From Candidatus Moraniibacteriota bacterium (lineage in GTDB: Bacteria; Patescibacteriota; Minisyncoccia; Moranbacterales; GWC2-37-73), in the NCBI GenBank assembly GCA_028715015.1, contig JAQTLF010000002.1, positions 23,851 through 60,665 on the forward strand: 36,815 bases of DNA, given 5' to 3'. Under the pieces are notes generated by a model, which did no database searches, had not been told where the DNA came from, and saw only the letters and a program-made list of their open reading frames with translations. Shown here piece by piece: positions 3,382 through 16,440 of this stretch. The first letter of the stretch is position 1, and each line of letters starts with the position of its first letter. Made by a program: the position numbers and the translations under genes.

Positions 3382-3565
3382 AATTTTTTGTTGTTATAAT
3401 AATTTTTTTATTTTATCATTTGCCACAACTATAAGCAAAAATAGACCCACCGGCAGGCAGGAAACTTTAGATTGGACAAGTTTCAAGATTCATTTAAAAT
3501 GCCTATATGCCGACTATTGCCAAGTTAAAAAATATTTGCTAAACTGATTTTGTTGCTTGAAAGGG

Positions 3566-3585
3566 CAATATTTTCGAAAATATTG
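3566..3585. repeat. 20-bp perfect palindrome upstream of tRNA-Asn
   Basis: CAATATTTTCGAAAATATTG is a perfect 10+10 palindrome ending 7 bases before the tRNA gene. It overlaps the position where a -10 box would lie (TATTGA at 3581-3586, with TTGAAA 18 bases upstream at 3557-3562). It could be an operator or a recombinase binding site. No function is shown by the sequence alone. Confidence 0.5.
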
Positions 3586-3592
3586 AATATAT

Positions 3593-3664
3593 TCCGGCGT
3601 AGCGCAGCGGTAGCGCAGTTGACTGTTAATCAATTGGTCGTAGGTTCGAATCCTACCGCCGGAG
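3593..3664 (+). tRNA. trnN: tRNA-Asn (anticodon GTT)
   Basis: A full cloverleaf can be drawn. The acceptor stem TCCGGCG pairs with CGCCGGA, the D-stem is GCGC/GCGC, the anticodon loop CTGTTAA gives anticodon GTT, and the T-arm is GTAGG-TTCGAAT-CCTAC. The discriminator is G at 3664, followed by CAG, so a 3' CCA is not encoded. The serine recombinase gene ends 64 bases downstream, making this tRNA the apparent edge of the accessory block. Confidence 0.95.
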
Positions 3665-3675
3665 CAGAACTGGAG

Positions 3676-3727: not shown

Positions 3728-5257
3728 TTAGAACCGCTTGAATATTGTCTTTATCTCAGAAGAGATTTTTTCAAGGCCTACTAACTTATTATTGGCTTCA
3801 ATATTGAGTTTTTTCTCAGAAAGTGAGAGGTTCGAACCAATCGCCTTGAATATCTCTTTTCGCTTTTCTTCGTCGCCATCCTTGAATTTTTCTAGTGCAT
3901 CTTGGGCGAATGCAAGCCATTCCTTGGCTTCTTCAAGTTGATCTATCCAGTTGGTTGAATTGCTCTCAGAAGCGTCCAAACTTGCTCTAAGGCGTGATTT
4001 TTCTTGGGATATGGTATCTTTCTTGGTAATGAACTCGCCCTCGCTTAGCTCGCCATTTATTCGCATATCTAGGAGTCTATCTAACTTTTTGTCACACGCT
4101 TCGAATTCCTTTTTGTGATCCTCGAGCGATTGTTTCTTTTCTTCAATTTCATCTCTGTTTTCTTCTCTCAATTTTTTAATTGCCCATTCCAAGAAAGTTG
4201 GATGAATCTTTATTTTATTGAGAACTATTATAATTTCTTCTTCAAACTTCTTTTCTTCGACCACTTTTTGATCACATTTTGGATCTAGTCGATGACTGCA
4301 ATGATAGTAGATGTAATAATGGGTGTTTCCATTCTGACATTTTTTAATTTTGTGTTCAGCCACAACTGATGCTCCGCATATTCCGCATCGTGTTGCTCCA
4401 GTATATTTGAAACTATATTTCCGTGGTCTGGTCGTGCCTCGTCTGCCCAATATTAATTGGGTTTTTTCAAATTCCGCTTGAGAGATCATTGGCTCATGCT
4501 TTCCTTTATGCCATTGTCCGCTATCAGATGGAAATTCATACCAGCCATAGTAGAAAGGGTTATTCATCATTGCATACCATGAGCTAATGGAAACTTTTTG
4601 ACCATGCTTGTTTGTAAATTTCCAATCGCTAGTTCCTTTTCTATATGCTTCCGGGGGAGTGAGCTTTCCTGAAGCTACCATCTTCAGCATTTTTTGAATC
4701 GTTTCAAATCTTTCAGGGTCTTTTTCAATTTCCTTTTCACCTTTTAGCTTGATGGGATTGTGTTTGTATCCTAGTGGCGATCCATTAGGATACCAACCTC
4801 GCTCTGCTTTGTTTCGTAGCCCTCGCTTTGTGTCAGTGCTTAAGTCTCGAATGAATTGATTTGCCATTCCTTGCTCTACAGCCATCACTAGAACATTATC
4901 TTCAGGGTAATAACTTCTTCCGAATGTAAAAATATGTTTTATCATCTTACCCTGTAGCATCCAACTTATCGTACCGCTATCTACAGGATTTCTAGACAGG
5001 CGATTAAGTTTCCAACAAAGTATTCCATCAGCTTCGCCCCGTTTTATTTTTTCAAACATTTCGTTAAAAACTATCCTCCCAGGCTCTTTGGCTGATTTGG
5101 ATTCATGCATAATTTCAGATATATTCAACCCGTTTTCTTCTGCGAGTCTTTTTAACTCTTCTATTTGTGAGTCGATTGATGCCATTTGTCGATCCTCACT
5201 TTCGGATGATTTTCTTGCATAGAGGATGTATTTATTTGCCTTTACTTCGTGGTTCAT
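3728..5257 (-). CDS. large serine recombinase (site-specific integrase)
   Basis: 509 residues. The N-terminal resolvase domain (about 8-150) carries YARKSS with the catalytic serine near residue 17, the IDSQIEEL block, and CWKLNRLSRNP. A recombinase domain follows (about 155-260, with GSPLGYKHNP and SSWYAMMNNPFYYGW). A zinc ribbon comes next with CGICGASV and a later cysteine in SHRLDPKC. The C-terminal coiled coil is charged (about 345-460). This is the layout of integrases that insert phages and integrative elements. It is the last gene of a minus-strand set that begins with the 46-aa protein at 6485, and it abuts tRNA-Asn. The start is an ATG; there is no clear Shine-Dalgarno motif. Confidence 0.93.
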   Translation of the reverse strand: MNHEVKANKYILYARKSSESEDRQMASIDSQIEELKRLAEENGLNISEIMHESKSAKEPGRIVFNEMFEKIKRGEADGILCWKLNRLSRNPVDSGTISWMLQGKMIKHIFTFGRSYYPEDNVLVMAVEQGMANQFIRDLSTDTKRGLRNKAERGWYPNGSPLGYKHNPIKLKGEKEIEKDPERFETIQKMLKMVASGKLTPPEAYRKGTSDWKFTNKHGQKVSISSWYAMMNNPFYYGWYEFPSDSGQWHKGKHEPMISQAEFEKTQLILGRRGTTRPRKYSFKYTGATRCGICGASVVAEHKIKKCQNGNTHYYIYYHCSHRLDPKCDQKVVEEKKFEEEIIIVLNKIKIHPTFLEWAIKKLREENRDEIEEKKQSLEDHKKEFEACDKKLDRLLDMRINGELSEGEFITKKDTISQEKSRLRASLDASESNSTNWIDQLEEAKEWLAFAQDALEKFKDGDEEKRKEIFKAIGSNLSLSEKKLNIEANNKLVGLEKISSEIKTIFKRF

Positions 5258-7382: not shown

Positions 7383-9371
7383 ATGAACGATGCATATTTT
7401 GGAAATAAAAAGATTTGTATAACGCAAAGACGTTATCTTGGCTCTAAAACTAAGCTACTATCATTTATAGATAGTATACTTGAAGGTGAGAATATAGAGT
7501 TTAATTCTTTCGCTGATATTTTTGCTGGAACTGGCACTGTTGCCAATCATTTTTATAATCGCTCTAAAATTATAGTGAATGATATTTTAGATTCAAATTC
7601 TCATGTCTACACAGCGTTTTTTGGTAAGGACATAATCAGGGAACAAAAACTGAAAGAACGACTAAAACATTATAATGACATTGAAATCAAAGAATATGAT
7701 GAAAATTATTTTTCAAAAAACTTTTCAAACACCTATTTTGACGCAGAAAATGCTAAAAAAATAGGAATCATTAGGGATGATATTGAAAAATTATTTGAAG
7801 AAAAAATAATTACCAATAGAGAAAAATCTTATTTACTAACATCTCTGATTTACGCACTTGATAGAATTGCCAATACAGTTGGCCATTATGATGCATACAG
7901 AAAAATCGACATTCCAACTAAAAAACTATTTTTACTGCCTCTTGATATAGCAAACTCTCGCTACTCTGCCGAAATCTACAAAGATGACGCTAATGAGCTG
8001 GTAAAAAAAATAAAAGCAGATGTTGTCTATATTGACCCACCATATAATTCTAGGCAATATTCAGATTCTTATCACTTATTAGAAAATATCGCTACTTGGA
8101 AAAAGGAAACAGTTTTTGGTGTTGCCAAAAAAATTGATCGCTCGCACATCAAAAGCGAGTACAACATGAAATCTGCAGGTGTTGCCTTTGGCGACTTAAT
8201 AGACAATATTAATGCGAAATATATCCTTGTTTCCTATAATGATATGGGGACTTCGGGTAATGCTCGCTCACAATCACGTATCAGTGACCATGAGATTTTG
8301 TCGTCGTTAAAACGGCGAGGCGAGGTAAAAGTCTTTGAGACAAACTTCAAACAATTCACTACTGGAAAATCGAGCAAGGATGATCTAAAAGAACGCATAT
8401 TTCTGTGTAAGGTAGACATTGTCTCAAGAAACAATAAGGCGATAATTGCCTCAAAAAACAATCCTGTTCAAGCTGGCTTTGTAAAATCACCCCTTAACTA
8501 CACTGGTGGAAAACATAAACTTTTACCCCAAATAACAAAGTTATTTCCAGTTGATATAAAAACTTTTTATGATGTATTTTCTGGCGGTGCGAATGTCGGA
8601 ATTAACGCTACGGCTAAAAATATAATCTGTATTGAAAAAAATCGTTATGTAGTAAATCTGTTGAAGTTAATACAAAATGATAATTTTGAAGATTTGAATC
8701 AAAAAGTGATCGACATTATAGATGAATTTGGTTTAAGCCAGAGTTACATAAAAGGCTACGACCATTATAATGTGGATAGTTCGTCAGGTCTTGGTCAACA
8801 CAATAAAGACGCTTTTCTAAAACTTCGCAGTGAGTTTAATAAAGAAAAAACAAGAATTGATTTATTGTTGGTGCTTGTTTTGTATTCTTTCAATAACCAA
8901 ATTAGATTCAATTCAAATGGCGATTTTAATTTACCAGTTGGAAAACGGGATTATAATGGTAGCTCAAGGAGAAATGTTGCGGCTTTCAGCCAAGTATCAA
9001 ATGAGAAAAAAATAGCATTTAAAAGTTGTGATTTTCGTGATGTTGAAAAAATGTCATTAATGAAAGATGATTTTGTGTATTTAGATCCACCATATTTACT
9101 GGGTCTTGCTAGTTATAATGAAAAGGGAGGCTGGACAGAAAAAGACGAGAAGGATCTATATTTACTCTTAACCAGACTGGATAAGAAAGGAATTAGGTTT
9201 GCTTTATCAAATGTCTTAGAGCATAAAGGCAAAACCAATGCAATAATGAAAAACTGGGCAAAAAAGCATAGTTATAAGGTTCATAAACTAAACTATGACT
9301 ACAAAAATTCAAATTATCACTCCACTGCAAAAAATAATAAAACCATAGAGGTTCTTATTACAAATTACTAA
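7383..9371 (+). CDS. fused double D12-class adenine-N6 DNA methyltransferase
   Basis: 662 residues made of two complete D12-class (Dam-like) methyltransferases in tandem. Domain one has YLGSKTKLL (motif X), FADIFAGTGTVA (about 43-54, SAM binding) and DPPY at 218-221. Domain two has NYTGGKHKLL, FYDVFSGGANVG (about 395-406) and DPPY at 568-571. Each half methylates adenine. A tandem pair is the known solution for an asymmetric Type IIS site whose strands differ (M.FokI is the classic example). The AlwI-type nuclease starts 21 bases downstream. The ATG is preceded by an AT-rich leader with no ribosome-binding site. Confidence 0.93.
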   Translation: MNDAYFGNKKICITQRRYLGSKTKLLSFIDSILEGENIEFNSFADIFAGTGTVANHFYNRSKIIVNDILDSNSHVYTAFFGKDIIREQKLKERLKHYNDIEIKEYDENYFSKNFSNTYFDAENAKKIGIIRDDIEKLFEEKIITNREKSYLLTSLIYALDRIANTVGHYDAYRKIDIPTKKLFLLPLDIANSRYSAEIYKDDANELVKKIKADVVYIDPPYNSRQYSDSYHLLENIATWKKETVFGVAKKIDRSHIKSEYNMKSAGVAFGDLIDNINAKYILVSYNDMGTSGNARSQSRISDHEILSSLKRRGEVKVFETNFKQFTTGKSSKDDLKERIFLCKVDIVSRNNKAIIASKNNPVQAGFVKSPLNYTGGKHKLLPQITKLFPVDIKTFYDVFSGGANVGINATAKNIICIEKNRYVVNLLKLIQNDNFEDLNQKVIDIIDEFGLSQSYIKGYDHYNVDSSSGLGQHNKDAFLKLRSEFNKEKTRIDLLLVLVLYSFNNQIRFNSNGDFNLPVGKRDYNGSSRRNVAAFSQVSNEKKIAFKSCDFRDVEKMSLMKDDFVYLDPPYLLGLASYNEKGGWTEKDEKDLYLLLTRLDKKGIRFALSNVLEHKGKTNAIMKNWAKKHSYKVHKLNYDYKNSNYHSTAKNNKTIEVLITNY

Positions 9372-9392
9372 TTTTTGTGGCATAATGAAATT

Positions 9393-11204
9393 ATGTTAAA
9401 AGCATGGTCAATTACAACAACTGTTAGAAACCCAGAACGTCTGCGTGATTTTTTGGTCGCCTTAAAACCCCTTGAAAATAAGACCTGGGACGATGCTAAC
9501 CAGGAAAATTATCAAAAACTTTTGATTAAAAACCGTTTGTATGGTTTCGGTAATACGCAATTTTATAATGGACTAACCTCGGATATTGTAAAATTGATAA
9601 ATGATACCGATAGAGAGATTGATGACAACACAATAGATGAGATCATAAAGTTAAAGAACTATACGGAATTTGCAATGCGTGGTCGTCAATCAATAAACCC
9701 TCTTACAAAATTTGGTTTTGTAGTTATAGATAATGGTGCAGTTAAAATAACCGAGCTCGGAAAGAAACTTATAGCTAGCGAAAAAGATGCTGGTGATGTA
9801 TTTCTAAAATCGTTTATAAAATGGCAGATACCAAACCCAGCTAGTAATGATTTTCCCGATGAAGGTAATTACGATGTTGTGCCTTTTGTTGCAACTCTTA
9901 AGTTAATAAGCGAAGTTAATAGAATTGAAACTGAGAAAGGAAATAATGCAGTTGGAATTAGTAAGCGAGAGTTTTCGCTATTTGCTCCGTCATTAGTTAA
10001 ATACGTAGATATTGAAAATTACGCAGAGCAAATTGTTAAGTTACGAGCCTTACAAAAAGGAAAAACAAAACAAGAACGAAAAGAAATTCGAGATAATTAT
10101 CGCAAACAATTTTCAACAAACTTTTTGGGTACAAGTAATCAAGTCGCAATCAATAAGTTACTCAAAAACCTGAAAGATTATGGAGATAATGCAATTAGAT
10201 ATTTCCGTCTGACAAAGTTTATTCGTATTCGTGGTAATGGTTTTTATATTGATTTGGAGCCAAATCGCCACACTGAGACGGAGGCGTTATTTGAAAGCGA
10301 ATTCTATAAGTCAAAACATTTTGCCGATAAAGATGAGTATGTTGCTTATATGTCTAATGATAGTTTACCTGTATTGCCTTGGCAAACAAAAGATAAGTTA
10401 TCTAAAATCGCTAGTAATGTTTATAACGACGTAATTGAATTGCAGAATAATCTTGGTTTGACGGCCGAAAGCAAAAAAGACATATCTGAAATGTCTGAAA
10501 ATGATTTAACATCATACATTAAGAATTTACGAGAAATACGCAAAGAAGTACAAGAAAAAGACAATCACATCAAAGCTCAACCAGTCTCATCAATTACTCA
10601 ATATATTGAGCAATTAGAAAACATTTTTGATCTTGAAAATCGTGCTTTAATGCTTGAATATCTTTCAACAATGGGGCTTCATGCTTTAAATGATGCAAAA
10701 GAAATTAAGCCAAATTATCCAGTCGGCGATGATAACGAACCGACGTCAACTGCTCCTGGTGGTATGGCTGATATTGAGTGTTTTTACAATAACTTTAATA
10801 TGATCTGTGAAGTTACAATGCTGAATGGTCGCGATCAATGGTTTAATGAGGGACAACCAGTTATGAGACATCTGCGTGATTTTGAAAATTCACACGACAA
10901 TGCTTACTGTATTTTCATTGCACCAACGATTCATACCGATAGTGCCGAAACTTTCCATATCGCCAACACAGTTGGCTATAAAGGCAGTAAACAGAAAATT
11001 GCACCGCTTACGATAAAGCAATTTGTTGAATTGCTAAAAACACTTAAACAAATGCGTGAGGCGAACAAAAAGTTTACACATGATAATTTGAAAATTTTAA
11101 TTAACGATATTGCTGATAGTGCCAATAGTATTAGTAACTCCGATGACTGGGTTGCAAATACACAAAATATCGTTAATTCTTGGGCTGTTAGTTTAGTAAA
11201 TTAG
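9393..11204 (+). CDS. AlwI-family Type IIS restriction endonuclease
   Basis: 603 residues from the ATG at 9393; the frame is open a little further upstream but only from a TTG. The start LKAWSITTTVRNPERLRDFL is the typical N-terminus of the AlwI family (AlwI, PleI, MlyI, nicking BstNBI), which cut a few bases outside GGATC or GAGTC. The catalytic PD-(D/E)XK core is visible late in the protein as GGMADIECF with D460, then CEVTML with E473 and T475 in the lysine position, as known for this family. The target of this copy cannot be read from sequence. It forms an RM operon with the fused methyltransferase and ends at a strong terminator. Confidence 0.92.
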   Translation: MLKAWSITTTVRNPERLRDFLVALKPLENKTWDDANQENYQKLLIKNRLYGFGNTQFYNGLTSDIVKLINDTDREIDDNTIDEIIKLKNYTEFAMRGRQSINPLTKFGFVVIDNGAVKITELGKKLIASEKDAGDVFLKSFIKWQIPNPASNDFPDEGNYDVVPFVATLKLISEVNRIETEKGNNAVGISKREFSLFAPSLVKYVDIENYAEQIVKLRALQKGKTKQERKEIRDNYRKQFSTNFLGTSNQVAINKLLKNLKDYGDNAIRYFRLTKFIRIRGNGFYIDLEPNRHTETEALFESEFYKSKHFADKDEYVAYMSNDSLPVLPWQTKDKLSKIASNVYNDVIELQNNLGLTAESKKDISEMSENDLTSYIKNLREIRKEVQEKDNHIKAQPVSSITQYIEQLENIFDLENRALMLEYLSTMGLHALNDAKEIKPNYPVGDDNEPTSTAPGGMADIECFYNNFNMICEVTMLNGRDQWFNEGQPVMRHLRDFENSHDNAYCIFIAPTIHTDSAETFHIANTVGYKGSKQKIAPLTIKQFVELLKTLKQMREANKKFTHDNLKILINDIADSANSISNSDDWVANTQNIVNSWAVSLVN

Positions 11205-11278: not shown

Positions 11279-11307
11279 TTGACAAAATAATTAAACGTTG
11301 ATAATAT
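11279..11307 (+). promoter_or_regulatory. consensus sigma70 promoter of the XRE-protease operon
   Basis: TTGACA (11279-11284), exactly 17 bases, TAATAT (11302-11307). This is the strongest promoter seen in the window. It places transcription start near 11313 and so rules out an earlier translation start for the XRE gene. Confidence 0.85.
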
Positions 11308-11336
11308 TAAGAAACAGTAATAATAAAAACAACTTT

Positions 11337-11663
11337 ATGCAAAATGACTTTGGTAAAAAAATAAAGGAATTACGAGAAAGCCATTTTCCAGGCATAAGTC
11401 TTAGAAATGTTGGCGAGCAGATACGTCCCAAAAGTAATTATTTTACATATCTTAGTAGGGTTGAAGCGGGAGTTATTAAGCCATCTAGAAAATTTTTATC
11501 TCAAATAAAGGATGAGTATCAACTAGATGACGATGAGTACAAGTCCTTGGTGTTGATCTACACTGCAACAGAAATAATGGATGGGTGGGCTGAATTTGAT
11601 GATACTGAAAAGAAAGATATGGTGGCACAACTTTTTAGGAAAATAAAGAAAGATAACAAATAA
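11337..11663 (+). CDS. XRE-family helix-turn-helix regulator
   Basis: 108 residues from the ATG at 11337. The segment DFGKKIKELRESHFPGISLR followed by NVGEQIRPKSNYFTYLSRVE and AGVIKPSR is an XRE/Cro-type helix-turn-helix (about residues 4-60). The rest is acidic and helical. It is followed four bases later by an ImmA/IrrE-type protease gene. In ICEBs1 and several phages such a pair holds the element silent until the protease removes the repressor, and some toxin-antitoxin loci share the layout. It probably represses its own consensus promoter. Confidence 0.85.
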   Translation: MQNDFGKKIKELRESHFPGISLRNVGEQIRPKSNYFTYLSRVEAGVIKPSRKFLSQIKDEYQLDDDEYKSLVLIYTATEIMDGWAEFDDTEKKDMVAQLFRKIKKDNK

Positions 11664-11667
11664 TAAT

Positions 11668-12354
11668 ATGCCACGATTACGTCTGCATAAAAATTGGAAT
11701 CCGCTCGAGGAAATTTATGATCTCACTAAAAAAGAGATTGAATTTCAAGTTATGCAAGATCTACAAAAGTATAATCAATATTTTCTTCAAAGATACGGCA
11801 GGTCAGTATCGGACGATTTTGATGTAGATAATTTTGTGGCAGAAAACTGGGGCTTTGAAATTGTTTTTGATTCATTGGATCAAACAGAAGGAGAAGAGAT
11901 TTTAGGATGTCTTAAACCAAGAGATAAAAAAATTATAGTAGATGCGGATCAGTGTAAAACACAAGCAAGAATAAATTTCACGATTGCACACGAGGCGGGT
12001 CATTTATCACTGCATGCTTCAATGATGCGTTTGGAAAATGGCAAAGTAGTTGATTGGAGAGATAAGCCAATCCAGCCACAATTTGCTAATCCAGAAAAAG
12101 AAAAAACTTTAGATGCTAATCAGCAAAAAATGGAACGTCAAGCCAATAGATATGCAGGTATTCTTCTCGCACCAACCCACAAAGTTTTCAGTGTGTTGGC
12201 ACAGATGAAGATCATAAATGATAATCAACAAACTGAATCACTGGATTTATCTAAACACGCTCAATTTTTAATGGATAAATTTGGTATGTCTAGACAAGCG
12301 TTGGAAATTAGATTGTCAGATTTAAAAGTTAGCGTTTTGAATAAAAAATACTGA
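11668..12354 (+). CDS. ImmA/IrrE-family metallopeptidase
   Basis: 228 residues. FTIAHEAGHLSLH (around residue 110) is the HExxH zinc site of the ImmA/IrrE (DUF955) family, and ERQANRYAGILLAP supplies the downstream glutamate region. The C-terminal part AQFLMDKFGMSRQALEIRL is the usual helix-turn-helix-like end. Relatives cleave XRE repressors after DNA damage or other signals. It starts four bases after the XRE stop, so the two are translated as a unit. Confidence 0.9.
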   Translation: MPRLRLHKNWNPLEEIYDLTKKEIEFQVMQDLQKYNQYFLQRYGRSVSDDFDVDNFVAENWGFEIVFDSLDQTEGEEILGCLKPRDKKIIVDADQCKTQARINFTIAHEAGHLSLHASMMRLENGKVVDWRDKPIQPQFANPEKEKTLDANQQKMERQANRYAGILLAPTHKVFSVLAQMKIINDNQQTESLDLSKHAQFLMDKFGMSRQALEIRLSDLKVSVLNKKY

Positions 12355-12550: not shown

Positions 12551-12673
12551 ATGCCAAAGACAAAGACAGTTGTAAAAATTGGGAGAAGTGCTAAAAACGG
12601 CCGTTTTATGACAGTCGCAAAAGCAAAAAAGGATCCCAAGCACACAACAGTAGAAACGATTAAGAAGAAATAA
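12551..12673 (+). CDS. 40-residue basic small protein
   Basis: This short frame reads MPKTKTVVKIGRSAKNGRFM then TVAKAKKDPKHTTVETIKKK. The core KIGRSAKNGRFMTVAKAKKDP-HTTVETIKK resembles a recurring family of very small basic proteins (pattern VGRSAKTGRFV---A--P-TTVTET) that I have seen as uncharacterised neighbours in bacterial genomes. It is followed within nine bases by a strong terminator, which supports a separate transcribed gene. The charge suggests nucleic-acid binding. The function is unknown. Confidence 0.75.
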   Translation: MPKTKTVVKIGRSAKNGRFMTVAKAKKDPKHTTVETIKKK

Positions 12674-12681
12674 TACATTGG

Positions 12682-12731: not shown

Positions 12732-13982
12732 ATGTTTTACAGAACAAAACCGCAGATATCATCGTATTATCAAAAGACACTCGAAAATATAAAAGAGAAA
12801 ATTCTTAGAGAATCAGACAATTTTATAATTGGGACAGATACCAAGGAACTGTCAGAGTTTTATTTGCAAGACCTTCCTCATCATATTCAGTTTGATGATG
12901 AGCGAGGAGAAGAACTTGAACACAAGAAGGAGTTGCGTCGGATAGAAGCACATAAAAGAGAGGAATTTTATCGCAATGAGGGGGCTATTAATTTTGAATA
13001 TGAGAGTGTGATAATCAGTATGTATTTTTTGCCCAATGATAATGTTCAAATGATTAGCGAATATATTCCATCTACCAGATCAATGAGTTGGACGCCAGAG
13101 GAAGTTAATTGGTATCGTGACCATGTTTCTTTTGGTATCGATATTAAAGGTTATGGTATAAATTTGGATGAAAACGGGATAAAAAATGCTATACAGTGGC
13201 AAAAAGACAGAATTTCAGAACGAATAAATAGCGTGAATGGTGATATTACTCAAGGTAACGAAATGCTTAAAACACAAATACCTAAATTTATTGAGGAAAG
13301 GAAGAGGAAGCTCTCAGAGGATAAAGATAAAATAGATGCTCTTATTAAAACGATAAATATTCCACTTAAAAAGAAAGAATCAGAGGCCGTGAAAAGAGTT
13401 CAATTGGACACGAAGCCATTGATAAAAAAGATTCGTCCAAATCCATCTTTGCCGGAAGTATATGAACTAGACAGAGAAAAAGTTGTTGATATTATTTCAA
13501 TAATAGACAATCAAGGAAGACAATTTGAAAAAACTCCAGACACATACAAAACTATTGGAGAAGAAGGATTAAGGAATGTACTACTTGTTAGTCTCAATAC
13601 GGTTTTTGAGGGAAAGGCTACTGGCGAAACATTTTCCAATAAAGGAAAAACCGATATTTATCTTTGTATAGACAAGGGAAATATCTTAGTTTGTGAATGT
13701 AAAATTTGGGGAGGAAAGGAATTATACAATGAAACAATCGATCAATTGCTTGGGTATCTCACATGGCGTCAGAACTATGGAATCATAATAACATTTGTTA
13801 AGCAAGTTAATTTTTCAAAAGTTATAGAACAAATTCCTGACATTGTAAAATCTCACAGTTCATATACGAGGGGTTATCTTCAAAAAGACACTACACACTT
13901 CATTTCTCACCACAAATTAAATGGGGATGATATTAAAGATGTCGAGATTCATCATCTCTTTTATAATCTTTACTTCGAATAA
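12732..13982 (+). CDS. PD-(D/E)XK nuclease-domain protein, putative defence nuclease
   Basis: 416 residues from the ATG at 12732, which has AGGA five bases upstream. The frame is open earlier, but only from a TTG inside the preceding terminator. The N-terminal half is helical and charged (about 30-230), with a coiled-coil-like stretch at 155-215. The C-terminal half holds a restriction-like core: EEGLRN with a glutamate near 277, then KGKTDIYL with D308, then VCECKIW with E322 and K324, then IDQLLGYLTWR. I recognise this block, including GKATGETF--KGKTDI, from a widespread uncharacterised nuclease family. The next gene follows after 25 bases on the same strand, so the two are probably one operon. 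A defence role is inference from context. Confidence 0.8.
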   Translation: MFYRTKPQISSYYQKTLENIKEKILRESDNFIIGTDTKELSEFYLQDLPHHIQFDDERGEELEHKKELRRIEAHKREEFYRNEGAINFEYESVIISMYFLPNDNVQMISEYIPSTRSMSWTPEEVNWYRDHVSFGIDIKGYGINLDENGIKNAIQWQKDRISERINSVNGDITQGNEMLKTQIPKFIEERKRKLSEDKDKIDALIKTINIPLKKKESEAVKRVQLDTKPLIKKIRPNPSLPEVYELDREKVVDIISIIDNQGRQFEKTPDTYKTIGEEGLRNVLLVSLNTVFEGKATGETFSNKGKTDIYLCIDKGNILVCECKIWGGKELYNETIDQLLGYLTWRQNYGIIITFVKQVNFSKVIEQIPDIVKSHSSYTRGYLQKDTTHFISHHKLNGDDIKDVEIHHLFYNLYFE

Positions 13983-14007
13983 AGCCATAATTAAATTGCA
14001 AAATAAC

Positions 14008-15369
14008 ATGTCTTTAATAAGAAAAAACCAACCAGAAATAACACGACCTGAGTTTTTTATTGAGGTGTGCATGAAAGGTTCAGCAGACCTTAGAAAAATT
14101 TTGAAAATTGATGAAAGTCAATACAATTTTATTCATCATAGAGGAGTCACTAAATCTCAAAGCTATTTTCTCTATAGTGCTATGAATGAAGTTGAAAAAG
14201 CAGGTATATCAATTATGCAGGCCGAGGAGTTTATTGGTAATGATGGAAAAGAGATTGATGAAAACGATCGTCTCACTAAGAACATTATCCAATCGATACA
14301 GGATGAGCAGTTTTTAAAAATCAGGAAAATGACTGAGTTATTAACGGAGCTTGTACTTTTTTCGAAAATAAATACGGATGTCTATTACAGACACTATATG
14401 TTGATTAAAGAGCTGAAGTCGTTAAAGGACACAATAAAAAATGCTAAGAATGCCTATGGTTGCCACATTCAAAATTATCAGAAGCAATTGGAAGATATAA
14501 TGCAAGAAATAAGTAGCCTCGAAACATCTCCTGTAGATATTAGTAAGTGTTGGTATTTAGCAAATGGAAAAAAGGGGCGTGTAACTGGCATTAAAGGTGT
14601 GCTCAGCTCATTCGAAGAAAGAATTAATACTGCTTTTGGGATTGCTAATCCAAATCAAATAATCGCACTTGGAACTTCATTTGAGGAGGGCTATGGTAAT
14701 TTTAGCAATGCTGTTCATTTCAATGCTGTTGTTGGTGCACATGTTTCGAATGTGTCATTACAGGGAATTAGGGCTAACATGAGTGGAATGGGAATACTTG
14801 CCGCAAATATAATTATTCAAGCCCGTATTTTATTTGGAGATCGTAGAAGAAGTGGCTATGCATCTTTTCTTTCTAAGATATTTAGAAATAGCAATCAGGC
14901 AGAAGTTGCATTAAATAAACATACTAAACCAAATATTCAAAAAGGTGACTTTGTTAATGCTCAAGGTGAATTAGCTGAGGTACTTAAAATAATGAAAGGA
15001 AAATATGGTTTTAGATCTTTTCGTGTCCGATTTTTATTAAAAGAAGATACGGAGGTTGCTGGAAAGGGAGATAGGAAAACAGTATGGACACATAAAAATC
15101 CAGAATTCGAAGAATATCCCGCAATGTGGGTAAGAAAGCTTTATAGTCGGAAAGAAATTTTAGATTCCATAAAGAAGGAAATTTTAAAACATGATTCTAA
15201 TGCGAACATAAGAACTCAAAAATTAGTTCCCTTTATAAGAAAGTCAGTTATTCATATGTGGGAAAATGTTGGCCTCAAGGAAAGCGTGCATGGCAAAAAA
15301 GAACAGGCCTTGGAAAAGGTTGAACAAGAAAGAGAAAGAATTAGAAGGAGCATTAATTCTGTTTCATAA
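14008..15369 (+). CDS. uncharacterised 453-residue partner of the nuclease
   Basis: 453 residues from the ATG at 14008; the open frame extends upstream into the nuclease gene. I do not recognise a family. Residues about 1-180 are helical and charged with coiled-coil character. The centre (about 195-290) has SFEERINTAFGIANP and FEEGYGNFSNAVHFNAVVGA, loosely like the histidine-containing helix of DUF5677-type proteins. A small beta domain follows (about 311-365; KGDFVNAQGELAEVLKI, YGFRSFRVRFLL), possibly SH3-like. The C-terminus is a basic helix. No membrane segment is seen. IS30 lies just behind the stop, which looks intact. Confidence 0.75.
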   Translation: MSLIRKNQPEITRPEFFIEVCMKGSADLRKILKIDESQYNFIHHRGVTKSQSYFLYSAMNEVEKAGISIMQAEEFIGNDGKEIDENDRLTKNIIQSIQDEQFLKIRKMTELLTELVLFSKINTDVYYRHYMLIKELKSLKDTIKNAKNAYGCHIQNYQKQLEDIMQEISSLETSPVDISKCWYLANGKKGRVTGIKGVLSSFEERINTAFGIANPNQIIALGTSFEEGYGNFSNAVHFNAVVGAHVSNVSLQGIRANMSGMGILAANIIIQARILFGDRRRSGYASFLSKIFRNSNQAEVALNKHTKPNIQKGDFVNAQGELAEVLKIMKGKYGFRSFRVRFLLKEDTEVAGKGDRKTVWTHKNPEFEEYPAMWVRKLYSRKEILDSIKKEILKHDSNANIRTQKLVPFIRKSVIHMWENVGLKESVHGKKEQALEKVEQERERIRRSINSVS

Positions 15370-15379
15370 GTTTAATTTT

Positions 15380-16440
15380 GTGAGGTTCGCATTAGTTCTA
15401 ACTCGCGGCTACATTCTAGCCTGAACTGCAATTTTGCCCTCTACAAATACCTCATAGGGAGTTAAATAGCCAAGTCTTTTTCGTGGGCAGTTGTTGATTA
15501 AATCTGCAGCCGCATCCACGATTTCTTGAGTAAGTATAGCAAACATACTTTTCTTAGGGAAGAACTGTCTAAGCAGTCCATTGGTATTTTCATTGGTACC
15601 TCGTTCCCAGCTATGGTATGGGTAAGCAAAATATATTTTCATATCCGTTTCTCTCTCGATGATTTCATGTTCTGAAAATTCTGTTCCGTTATCATAGGTA
15701 ATCGTATGTTTTTTGTCTTCAGAAATATTTTTAAATCTTTCAACTGCTTTTTCTTTTACAGAAGAAGCAGTTTTTCTTTTTAAAAGATCTGCCAAAAGAA
15801 ATCCGCTCTTTCTTTCTACATGGGTTAGGATTCCTGTAGTTTTTTCTCCACCTACAATCGTGTCACCCTCCCAATCTCCAATTCTTTCTCGCTTGTCTAC
15901 AATTTCCCCGCGCGTGTCTATACGCTTCTTTTTGGCTTCCTCACGTGCTTTCTCCCTATCTTTGGTTCCATGTCGTCTTCTGTATTTTCCTTTCTTCTGT
16001 CTTAAAAATTTTCTCCATTCTTTTTTCTCCTCATAAATGAATTGGTAGATTGTTTCATGGCAAATGATTAATCCAAAATCTTTTCGAAGCCTACCTGCAA
16101 TCTGTTCTGGTGACCAAAATTCTTTAGTTAACTTTTCTTCAACATAATTACAAATCTCTTCATCAACAAAAAGTTTCTTGGTTTTTCTTTTTGCAATCCT
16201 CCTTCTTCTCATAGCCAAGGAATGTGCTTTTTGAGGTTCATATTCACCCTTGTTGTTTCTGGTTAATTCTCTGCTAATTGTTGATGGATCAACTTCTAAC
16301 TGCAGTGCGATATCTTTCCGTATTAGCCCTGCTTTAAGGAGGGCTGCTAGGCTAATTCTTTTGCCTAGTGTAAGCTGGTTATGGGACATCTTGTTTTAAG
16401 TTAATGTTTAGTTGCTCGACACAACTATTTTAACTCAAAA
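15380..16440. mobile_element. IS30-family insertion sequence (approximate limits)
   Basis: The limits are approximate. Flanks of the transposase show no clean terminal repeat by eye; the nearest candidates are around 15385-15405 and 16415-16440, with only a few matching bases. The element lies between the 453-aa gene and the 112-aa gene and disrupts neither visibly. Confidence 0.5.
15409..16389 (-). CDS. IS30-family transposase
   Basis: 326 residues, the full IS30 length. An N-terminal helix-turn-helix (QLTLGKRISLAALLKAG, then IALQLEVDPSTISRELTRN) is followed by the rve/DDE core: GDWEGDTIVG with D176, TYDNGTEF with D233, and NENTNGLLRQFFPK with E267. CPRKRLGYLTPYEVF closes the domain. It appears intact and potentially active. 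Confidence 0.95.
   Translation of the reverse strand: MSHNQLTLGKRISLAALLKAGLIRKDIALQLEVDPSTISRELTRNNKGEYEPQKAHSLAMRRRRIAKRKTKKLFVDEEICNYVEEKLTKEFWSPEQIAGRLRKDFGLIICHETIYQFIYEEKKEWRKFLRQKKGKYRRRHGTKDREKAREEAKKKRIDTRGEIVDKRERIGDWEGDTIVGGEKTTGILTHVERKSGFLLADLLKRKTASSVKEKAVERFKNISEDKKHTITYDNGTEFSEHEIIERETDMKIYFAYPYHSWERGTNENTNGLLRQFFPKKSMFAILTQEIVDAAADLINNCPRKRLGYLTPYEVFVEGKIAVQARM

Follow-up and report, generated by a model that had tools for sequence, protein, structure and literature searches.

The stretch of DNA analyzed here (36,815 nucleotides, called the window throughout) contains two neighboring genes, which raise the question of whether they form a new two-gene anti-phage system. In the preliminary description a nuclease gene (12732-13982) and the gene directly behind it (14008-15369, called gene 2 in the following) had been proposed to encode an undescribed defense system, in which the nuclease acts together with a dedicated partner.

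Results

The two genes and their genomic island

Both open reading frames and the gap of 25 bases between them were confirmed, and both genes are on the forward strand. Full-length homologs at about 20-32% identity demonstrate that both are real genes. The nuclease has 416 amino acids when it is read from its ATG, and the mechanically derived frame opens at a TTG at position 12678 (434 aa). Gene 2 encodes 453 amino acids, and its mechanical frame opens at 13921. A terminator-like site was searched for between the two genes, and none was found.

The gene order is serine recombinase, AlwI-type restriction-modification (RM) system, pair of helix-turn-helix (HTH) and M78 peptidase genes, nuclease, and gene 2. 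A tRNA-Asn gene (gtt, 3593-3665, forward strand) adjoins the gene of a large serine recombinase on the reverse strand (3728-5257; Pfam Resolvase, E 8.5e-20, Zn_ribbon_recom, and Recombinase), which is the probable integrase of the island. The following genes are on the forward strand. The RM system consists of a two-domain D12-class adenine methyltransferase (7383-9371; MethyltransfD12, 4e-61; PADLOC MTase_II, 2.7e-170) and an AlwI-type restriction endonuclease (9375-11204; RE_AlwI, 3.6e-88; PADLOC REase_II, 2.9e-126), and thus both components that define an AlwI-type RM system were found. Next is a gene for a small HTH protein, probably a repressor, with an uncertain TTG start (11298-11663). 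No model matched it above the cut-off, HTH_31 of Pfam was below it (E 0.017), and the only PADLOC match was HTH_VI (E 0.013). It ends 4 bases 5' of the gene for an ImmA/IrrE-like, CapP-like M78 metallopeptidase with an HEAGH motif (11668-12354; Peptidase_M78, 4.5e-9; PADLOC capP, 1.6e-16). The RM system and the regulator pair upstream of the nuclease had both been recognized earlier from the sequence. Peptidase and nuclease genes are 377 bases apart, and a separate promoter could be located within these bases. They also contain a possible 40-aa reading frame (12551-12673, forward strand), of which the membership in the operon is uncertain; its product is basic, contains IGRSAKNGRF, and had no match in PADLOC. 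Directly 3' of gene 2, on the opposite strand, is a transposase gene (15409-16389; HTH_32, HTH_38, and rve), which we take to be IS30-like from its domain content, and which may have trimmed the end of the island.

The island is located between tRNA-Asn and rpoD, and the same site is empty in two genomes of the same genus. In these relatives (G612 and G397), tRNA-Asn lies near rpoD, at a distance of about 115-125 bases, in contrast to about 13.4 kb in the window. The GC content is 30-35% at 7-15 kb, compared to 36-45% to the right of 17 kb. The tRNA-Asn segment (window 3533-3666) is inverted relative to rpoD when it is compared to the same-genus loci L031 (4401-4528) and L032 (16402-16526), and, thus, a simple insertion cannot account for everything. 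The inversion represents either an event at or after the insertion of the island or an assembly fault. Because of the inverted tRNA-Asn and the IS30-like element, the island borders are not pinned down, and a search for flanking direct repeats, which would mark an attachment site, revealed no clear one. Taken together, this is probably a mobile defense island with the serine recombinase as its integrase.

The nuclease belongs to the candidate family PDC-S54

The nuclease matched the PADLOC family PDC-S54 (PDLC05036) with an E-value of 1.8e-76, and the match covered positions 10-407 of the 410 profile positions and residues 24-432 of the 434-aa frame. The nuclease is, therefore, already a candidate in a defense database, and the earlier view that it represents an undescribed system had to be given up. 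PADLOC contains Shedu models, and a match to a Shedu-type profile was also considered; PDC-S54 was the sole report at E 1 or better. Neither Pfam nor NCBIfam contained a matching family, and a literature search for the name PDC-S54 found nothing.

Twelve sequences were aligned, i.e., the nuclease of the window, three from Patescibacteria, and eight from viral contigs. The residues E277, D308, E322, C323, K324, and Q338 were invariant in all twelve, including the complete core that had been read from the window sequence alone (E277, D308, E322-C-K324). An AlphaFold2 model based on the twelve rows (mean pLDDT 75.1, pTM 0.44) predicted an N-terminal helical and alpha/beta part, a long helix (147-208), and a linker of low confidence (212-243), followed by a C-terminal domain that is confident from about residue 248 onward. 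The long helical N-terminus of the preliminary description was thus retained with respect to the long helix, but the rest is modeled as three short helices and an alpha/beta part. In the C-terminal domain the model has, in this order, a helix (277-292), two strands (308-313 and 317-325), a second helix (329-342), and a further strand (349-356). E277 is located in the first of these helices, and two neighboring strands carry D308 and E322/K324.

A Foldseek search with the model returned nothing at E 0.001 or better. When the Foldseek candidates were aligned with residues of about 245-416 using VIA-align, BamHI was at the top (Z 8.0, rmsd 3.6, 130 aligned residues), together with OkrAI (Z 8.0, rmsd 4.0, 138 residues), and BglII, McrC, Can2, NucC, and HamA had lower ranks; most of the top rows were PD-(D/E)XK nucleases. 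A Z of 8 is modest according to the note of the tool, and, therefore, the fold assignment is mainly based on the motif together with the profile match and the element order. For the N-terminal part no fold was named, and the list for the whole model was taken up by the C-terminal domain. Judged from the conserved residues and the model, 12732-13982 encodes a PD-(D/E)XK nuclease with its core, a restriction-endonuclease-like predicted fold, and the alpha-beta-beta-beta-alpha-beta order.

Distribution and neighbors of the nuclease

Full-length homologs of the nuclease with about 20-28% identity were found in Patescibacteria and on viral contigs, and matches with partial coverage on plasmids of several other phyla. 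PDC-S54 was present in 5 of 286 genomes of the phylum, one of which had only half of the gene, and was absent from all 14 control genomes. A tblastn search of 72,556 plasmid and 50,697 phage records detected it in 23 and 2 of them, respectively, and a pattern scan yielded eight viral-contig loci.

The nuclease gene was often found beside RM genes. At L047 (137-6741), a viral contig, genes for HsdM, HsdS, and HsdR are followed at once by the PDC-S54 nuclease gene; a type II methyltransferase gene is close to the nuclease gene at L046, and a gene matching type III methyltransferases is in the same gene row at L015. At L016 (12630-17664) the ATG of the nuclease directly follows the stop codon of a type III Res gene, and a gene for a PDC-M41A protein is next; this tight row may be more suitable for a test than the window itself. 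At L018 (9107-9676) the PDC-S54 gene is reduced to its N-terminal half, and a cytosine methyltransferase gene is about 1.5 kb away. No defense match was seen beside the nuclease at L017, which was inspected by reading, or at L040, L043, and L045, for which a single neighbor each was scanned. Seven annotated plasmid loci out of the 20 listed were inspected; one had a methyltransferase gene nearby, a second had NACHT and PIN genes, and a third had a toxin-antitoxin pair, and the remaining ones had no defense company by annotation. According to an excerpt of PMC12988326, the PDC families of PADLOC derive from guilt by embedding and most are without experiments, and, thus, the proximity of the nuclease to RM genes may be partly circular.

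Gene 2 represents an undescribed family in Patescibacteria

For gene 2 no family was found above the cut-off in Pfam, NCBIfam, PADLOC, or PHROGs, in agreement with the first assessment. Five other relatives with 27-32% identity were detected, all of them full length and all from Patescibacteria (G236, CAJYIP010000003.1, G646, G672, and G735). The six proteins represent about four independent lineages, because those of L013 and L014 are 82% identical and those of L033 and L034 70%. Full-length genes were present in 2 of 286 genomes of the phylum, only in the window's own genome among 383 of its class, in 4 of 392 from the class to which G236 belongs, and in 2 of 379 in a second draw from the phylum, and these draws overlap. 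Short matches were dropped. These were G270 and G279, two of four matches in the 286 genomes, which covered about 94-105 residues of the query with E-values of 7.1e-4 and 5.9e-5 (one of them had two stops), and G302 from the 383 genomes (84 columns, E 6.0e-4, one stop). Gene 2 was absent from two further genomes of the window's genus, and no match was found on plasmids, phages, or viral contigs. Its wider occurrence is probably undercounted, because the single contig scan was performed with two short peptide patterns.

An AlphaFold2 model of gene 2 based on the six rows (pLDDT 71.4, pTM 0.64) predicted a region of ten helices that extends to residue 306, then strands in the range 315-379, and a helical tail. 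The small beta domain suggested earlier was thus recovered in the model (about 315-379); it appears SH3/KOW-like, and small beta domains of this type are often involved in binding nucleic acids or proteins. In the alignment 63 positions were invariant in all six rows. Residues 14-310 contain 45 of them, of which 28 are D, E, K, R, H, N, Q, S, T, Y, or W, and 15 are charged or His; the conserved set includes E61, E63, K64, R88, D99, E100, R106, K107, E110, H129, E135, and H237. For proteins with only about 30% identity this set is unusually conserved, and the number of invariant charges suggests that the helical domain is not just a scaffold but contains a pocket, which may be catalytic or bind a ligand.

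In the fold search with gene 2, neither the PDB nor the viral structures gave a match at E 0.001 or better. The VIA list was filled by GPCR helix bundles with Z up to 9.9, which is common for helical models according to the note of the tool. Viral fold matches with a high probability had E-values of about 0.2-1; they concern small proteins (one BAH domain, one DUF1653) and are regarded as a lead only.

Several candidate assignments were rejected. DUF5677 (PF18928) reached at best 14.8 bits against a cut-off of 27.1, and hhalign gave a probability of 0.1%. A weak match was seen in one of the six proteins (that of L035, E 0.031, residues 131-233), DUF5677 against the nuclease profile scored similarly low as a control, and a literature search for DUF5677 found nothing related. 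HEPN toxins have the motif R-x4-6-H, and an invariant motif of this type was not seen when the six-row alignment was read. Pfam BLOC1_2 (E 0.003) and TraD_N (E 0.074) matched below the cut-off, in the long helical region, and in one of the six members each, and were, therefore, taken as coiled-coil noise.

Gene 2 recurs near serine recombinases

A serine recombinase gene was found near gene 2 at five of the six loci. In four of the five gene-2 genomes a PF07508 recombinase gene is less than 10 kb away, and this is also the case at L013; at L034 the nearest one is about 37 kb away on the same contig (G646). The five genomes together contain 16 PF07508 recombinase genes, and a random spot would be that close with a frequency of about 4-8% per genome (hand calculation), so that four of five is far above chance. 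The recombinase genes abut or overlap tRNA genes at L013 (Gly), L014 (Gly), L033 (Asp), and L035 (Arg), and their last codons may be derived from the target tRNA.

RM or Avs2 genes were near gene 2 at four of the six loci, with a different system each time. In addition to the window, these are L014, with type III Mod and Res and an AAA ATPase, L034, with HsdR of type I just 5' of gene 2, and L013 (5718-9797), with a 1359-aa Avs2 STAND NTPase (E 8.3e-274) in a serine-recombinase element of Patescibacteria. At L033 and L035 no PADLOC match was found among the four and two neighbors scanned, respectively. Each of the five gene-2 genomes has 5 to 11 genes for ResIII-type helicases alone, and many of these are housekeeping genes. 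An enrichment of gene 2 near defense genes is likely, judged from the raw count of four of six.

Pairing of the two genes and alternative explanations

Profiles of both families were run over the loci L001-L055. Gene 2 was found at six places and the nuclease at 21, including the N-terminal half in G209 (L009/L018), and the two occurred together in the window only. The nuclease was thus without gene 2 at 20 of 21 loci, and gene 2 without the nuclease at five of six; the flanks of the loci varied in length between about 0.2 kb, where a contig ended, and 10 kb or more, and distant pairing is therefore less well tested. PDC-S54 was found anywhere in only one of the five gene-2 genomes, which is that of the window. 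A preponderance of gene 2 without the nuclease had been named beforehand as the outcome that would refute the proposal, and this is what was found. With these numbers the idea of a dedicated pair fails, and a new two-gene system is not supported. The common strand, the short gap, the lack of a terminator-like site between the genes, and the position of both in a defense island would all fit a true two-gene anti-phage system. Yet their joint occurrence is confined to a single locus, and nuclease relatives reached plasmids of several phyla, whereas gene 2 had no match on plasmids or phages. We regard a two-gene system as very unlikely.

What gene 2 does on its own can be read in several ways. 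It is possible, as a tentative proposal, that it is a new standalone anti-phage or RM-assisting protein, which so far was found only in Patescibacteria, is moved by tRNA-associated serine recombinases, and combines a pocket-like helical domain with a beta domain. Somewhat unlikely is a role as an accessory of the mobile element in excision, replication, or maintenance instead of in defense. The recombinase within 10 kb at five of six loci argues for this role, as do L033 and L035, which lack PADLOC matches among the neighbors scanned and carry a frame that by reading looks like a replication initiator or a primase/helicase (no Pfam match above the cut-off). However, gene 2 follows HsdR at L034, with the recombinase far away, and in the window and at L014 it is located on the RM side, about 9 kb from the recombinase. 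Gene 2 adjoins RM systems of three types (IIS, III, and I), which would also be consistent with a helper of RM, i.e., a regulator, a modulator, or an anti-restriction factor, in place of a standalone effector. This is unlikely, because Avs2 is the only defense match among the scanned neighbors at L013, and the neighbors scanned at L033 and L035 had none.

Discussion

The explanation that we favor, with modest confidence, is an island moved by a serine recombinase that combines an RM layer with a second, regulator-controlled layer containing two interchangeable cargo genes. The island would have brought a layered defense set into a Patescibacteria genome, with the AlwI-type RM system as the first layer. 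By analogy with CapH/CapP, the M78 peptidase would be activated by ssDNA and would cut the HTH repressor, and this cleavage would free the downstream operon of two separate effectors. The nuclease would cleave DNA through its C-terminal PD-(D/E)XK domain, controlled by the N-terminal and long-helix part, and gene 2, with its predicted helical part and small SH3/KOW-like beta domain, would act alone or as a helper. The two would be interchangeable cargo and not subunits of one machine. From the layout of RM system, HTH gene, M78 peptidase gene, and effector genes, we propose that DNA damage would trigger the release of the nuclease and of gene 2 after the first-line restriction has either failed or cut incoming DNA; this presumes that the two genes are co-transcribed and induced by DNA damage, that the nuclease cleaves DNA, and that the two proteins have an anti-phage role.

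What is new at this locus is the undescribed family of gene 2 within a known kind of island, while the nuclease is a known candidate. An excerpt of PMC12259885 reports that groundwater Patescibacteria (CPR) have few defense systems per genome, although their density per megabase is high. Should gene 2 be an effector, it would represent a lineage-specific family with a conserved pocket, accessible to tests in a laboratory host. The order of RM system, HTH/M78 pair, and nuclease would carry the reported idea of a damage-responsive switch from RM to a second line into a reduced genome. If gene 2 is only an accessory of the element, the locus would be an ordinary defense island.

Comparison with known systems

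As in other AlwI-type IIS RM systems, a double-domain methyltransferase gene is followed by an RE_AlwI endonuclease gene, and the RM system of the window is an ordinary member of this type. PDC-S54 is a single-gene candidate, which the nuclease matches over its full length; here it is found in an island with an RM system and an HTH/M78 pair, and gene 2 is behind it. DUF5677 shares with gene 2 the helical pattern that had prompted the comparison, but the profile score remained below the threshold. A further parallel concerns the regulator pair. In the accessible parts of PMC13373217 and PMC10233336, CapP is described as an ssDNA-activated protease that cleaves the repressor CapH and thereby releases the adjoining immune operon, and the former also states that in 88 of 443 cases an analogous regulator pair, CapK/CapS, directly follows an R-M system. 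The HTH gene and the M78 peptidase gene of the window, 4 bases apart, are likewise located between an RM system and the nuclease operon, and the peptidase is of the CapP kind by its capP and Peptidase_M78 matches. The HTH protein had no capH match in PADLOC. The order of RM system, HTH gene, M78 peptidase gene, and effector genes matches the published layout, as far as it is given in these parts.
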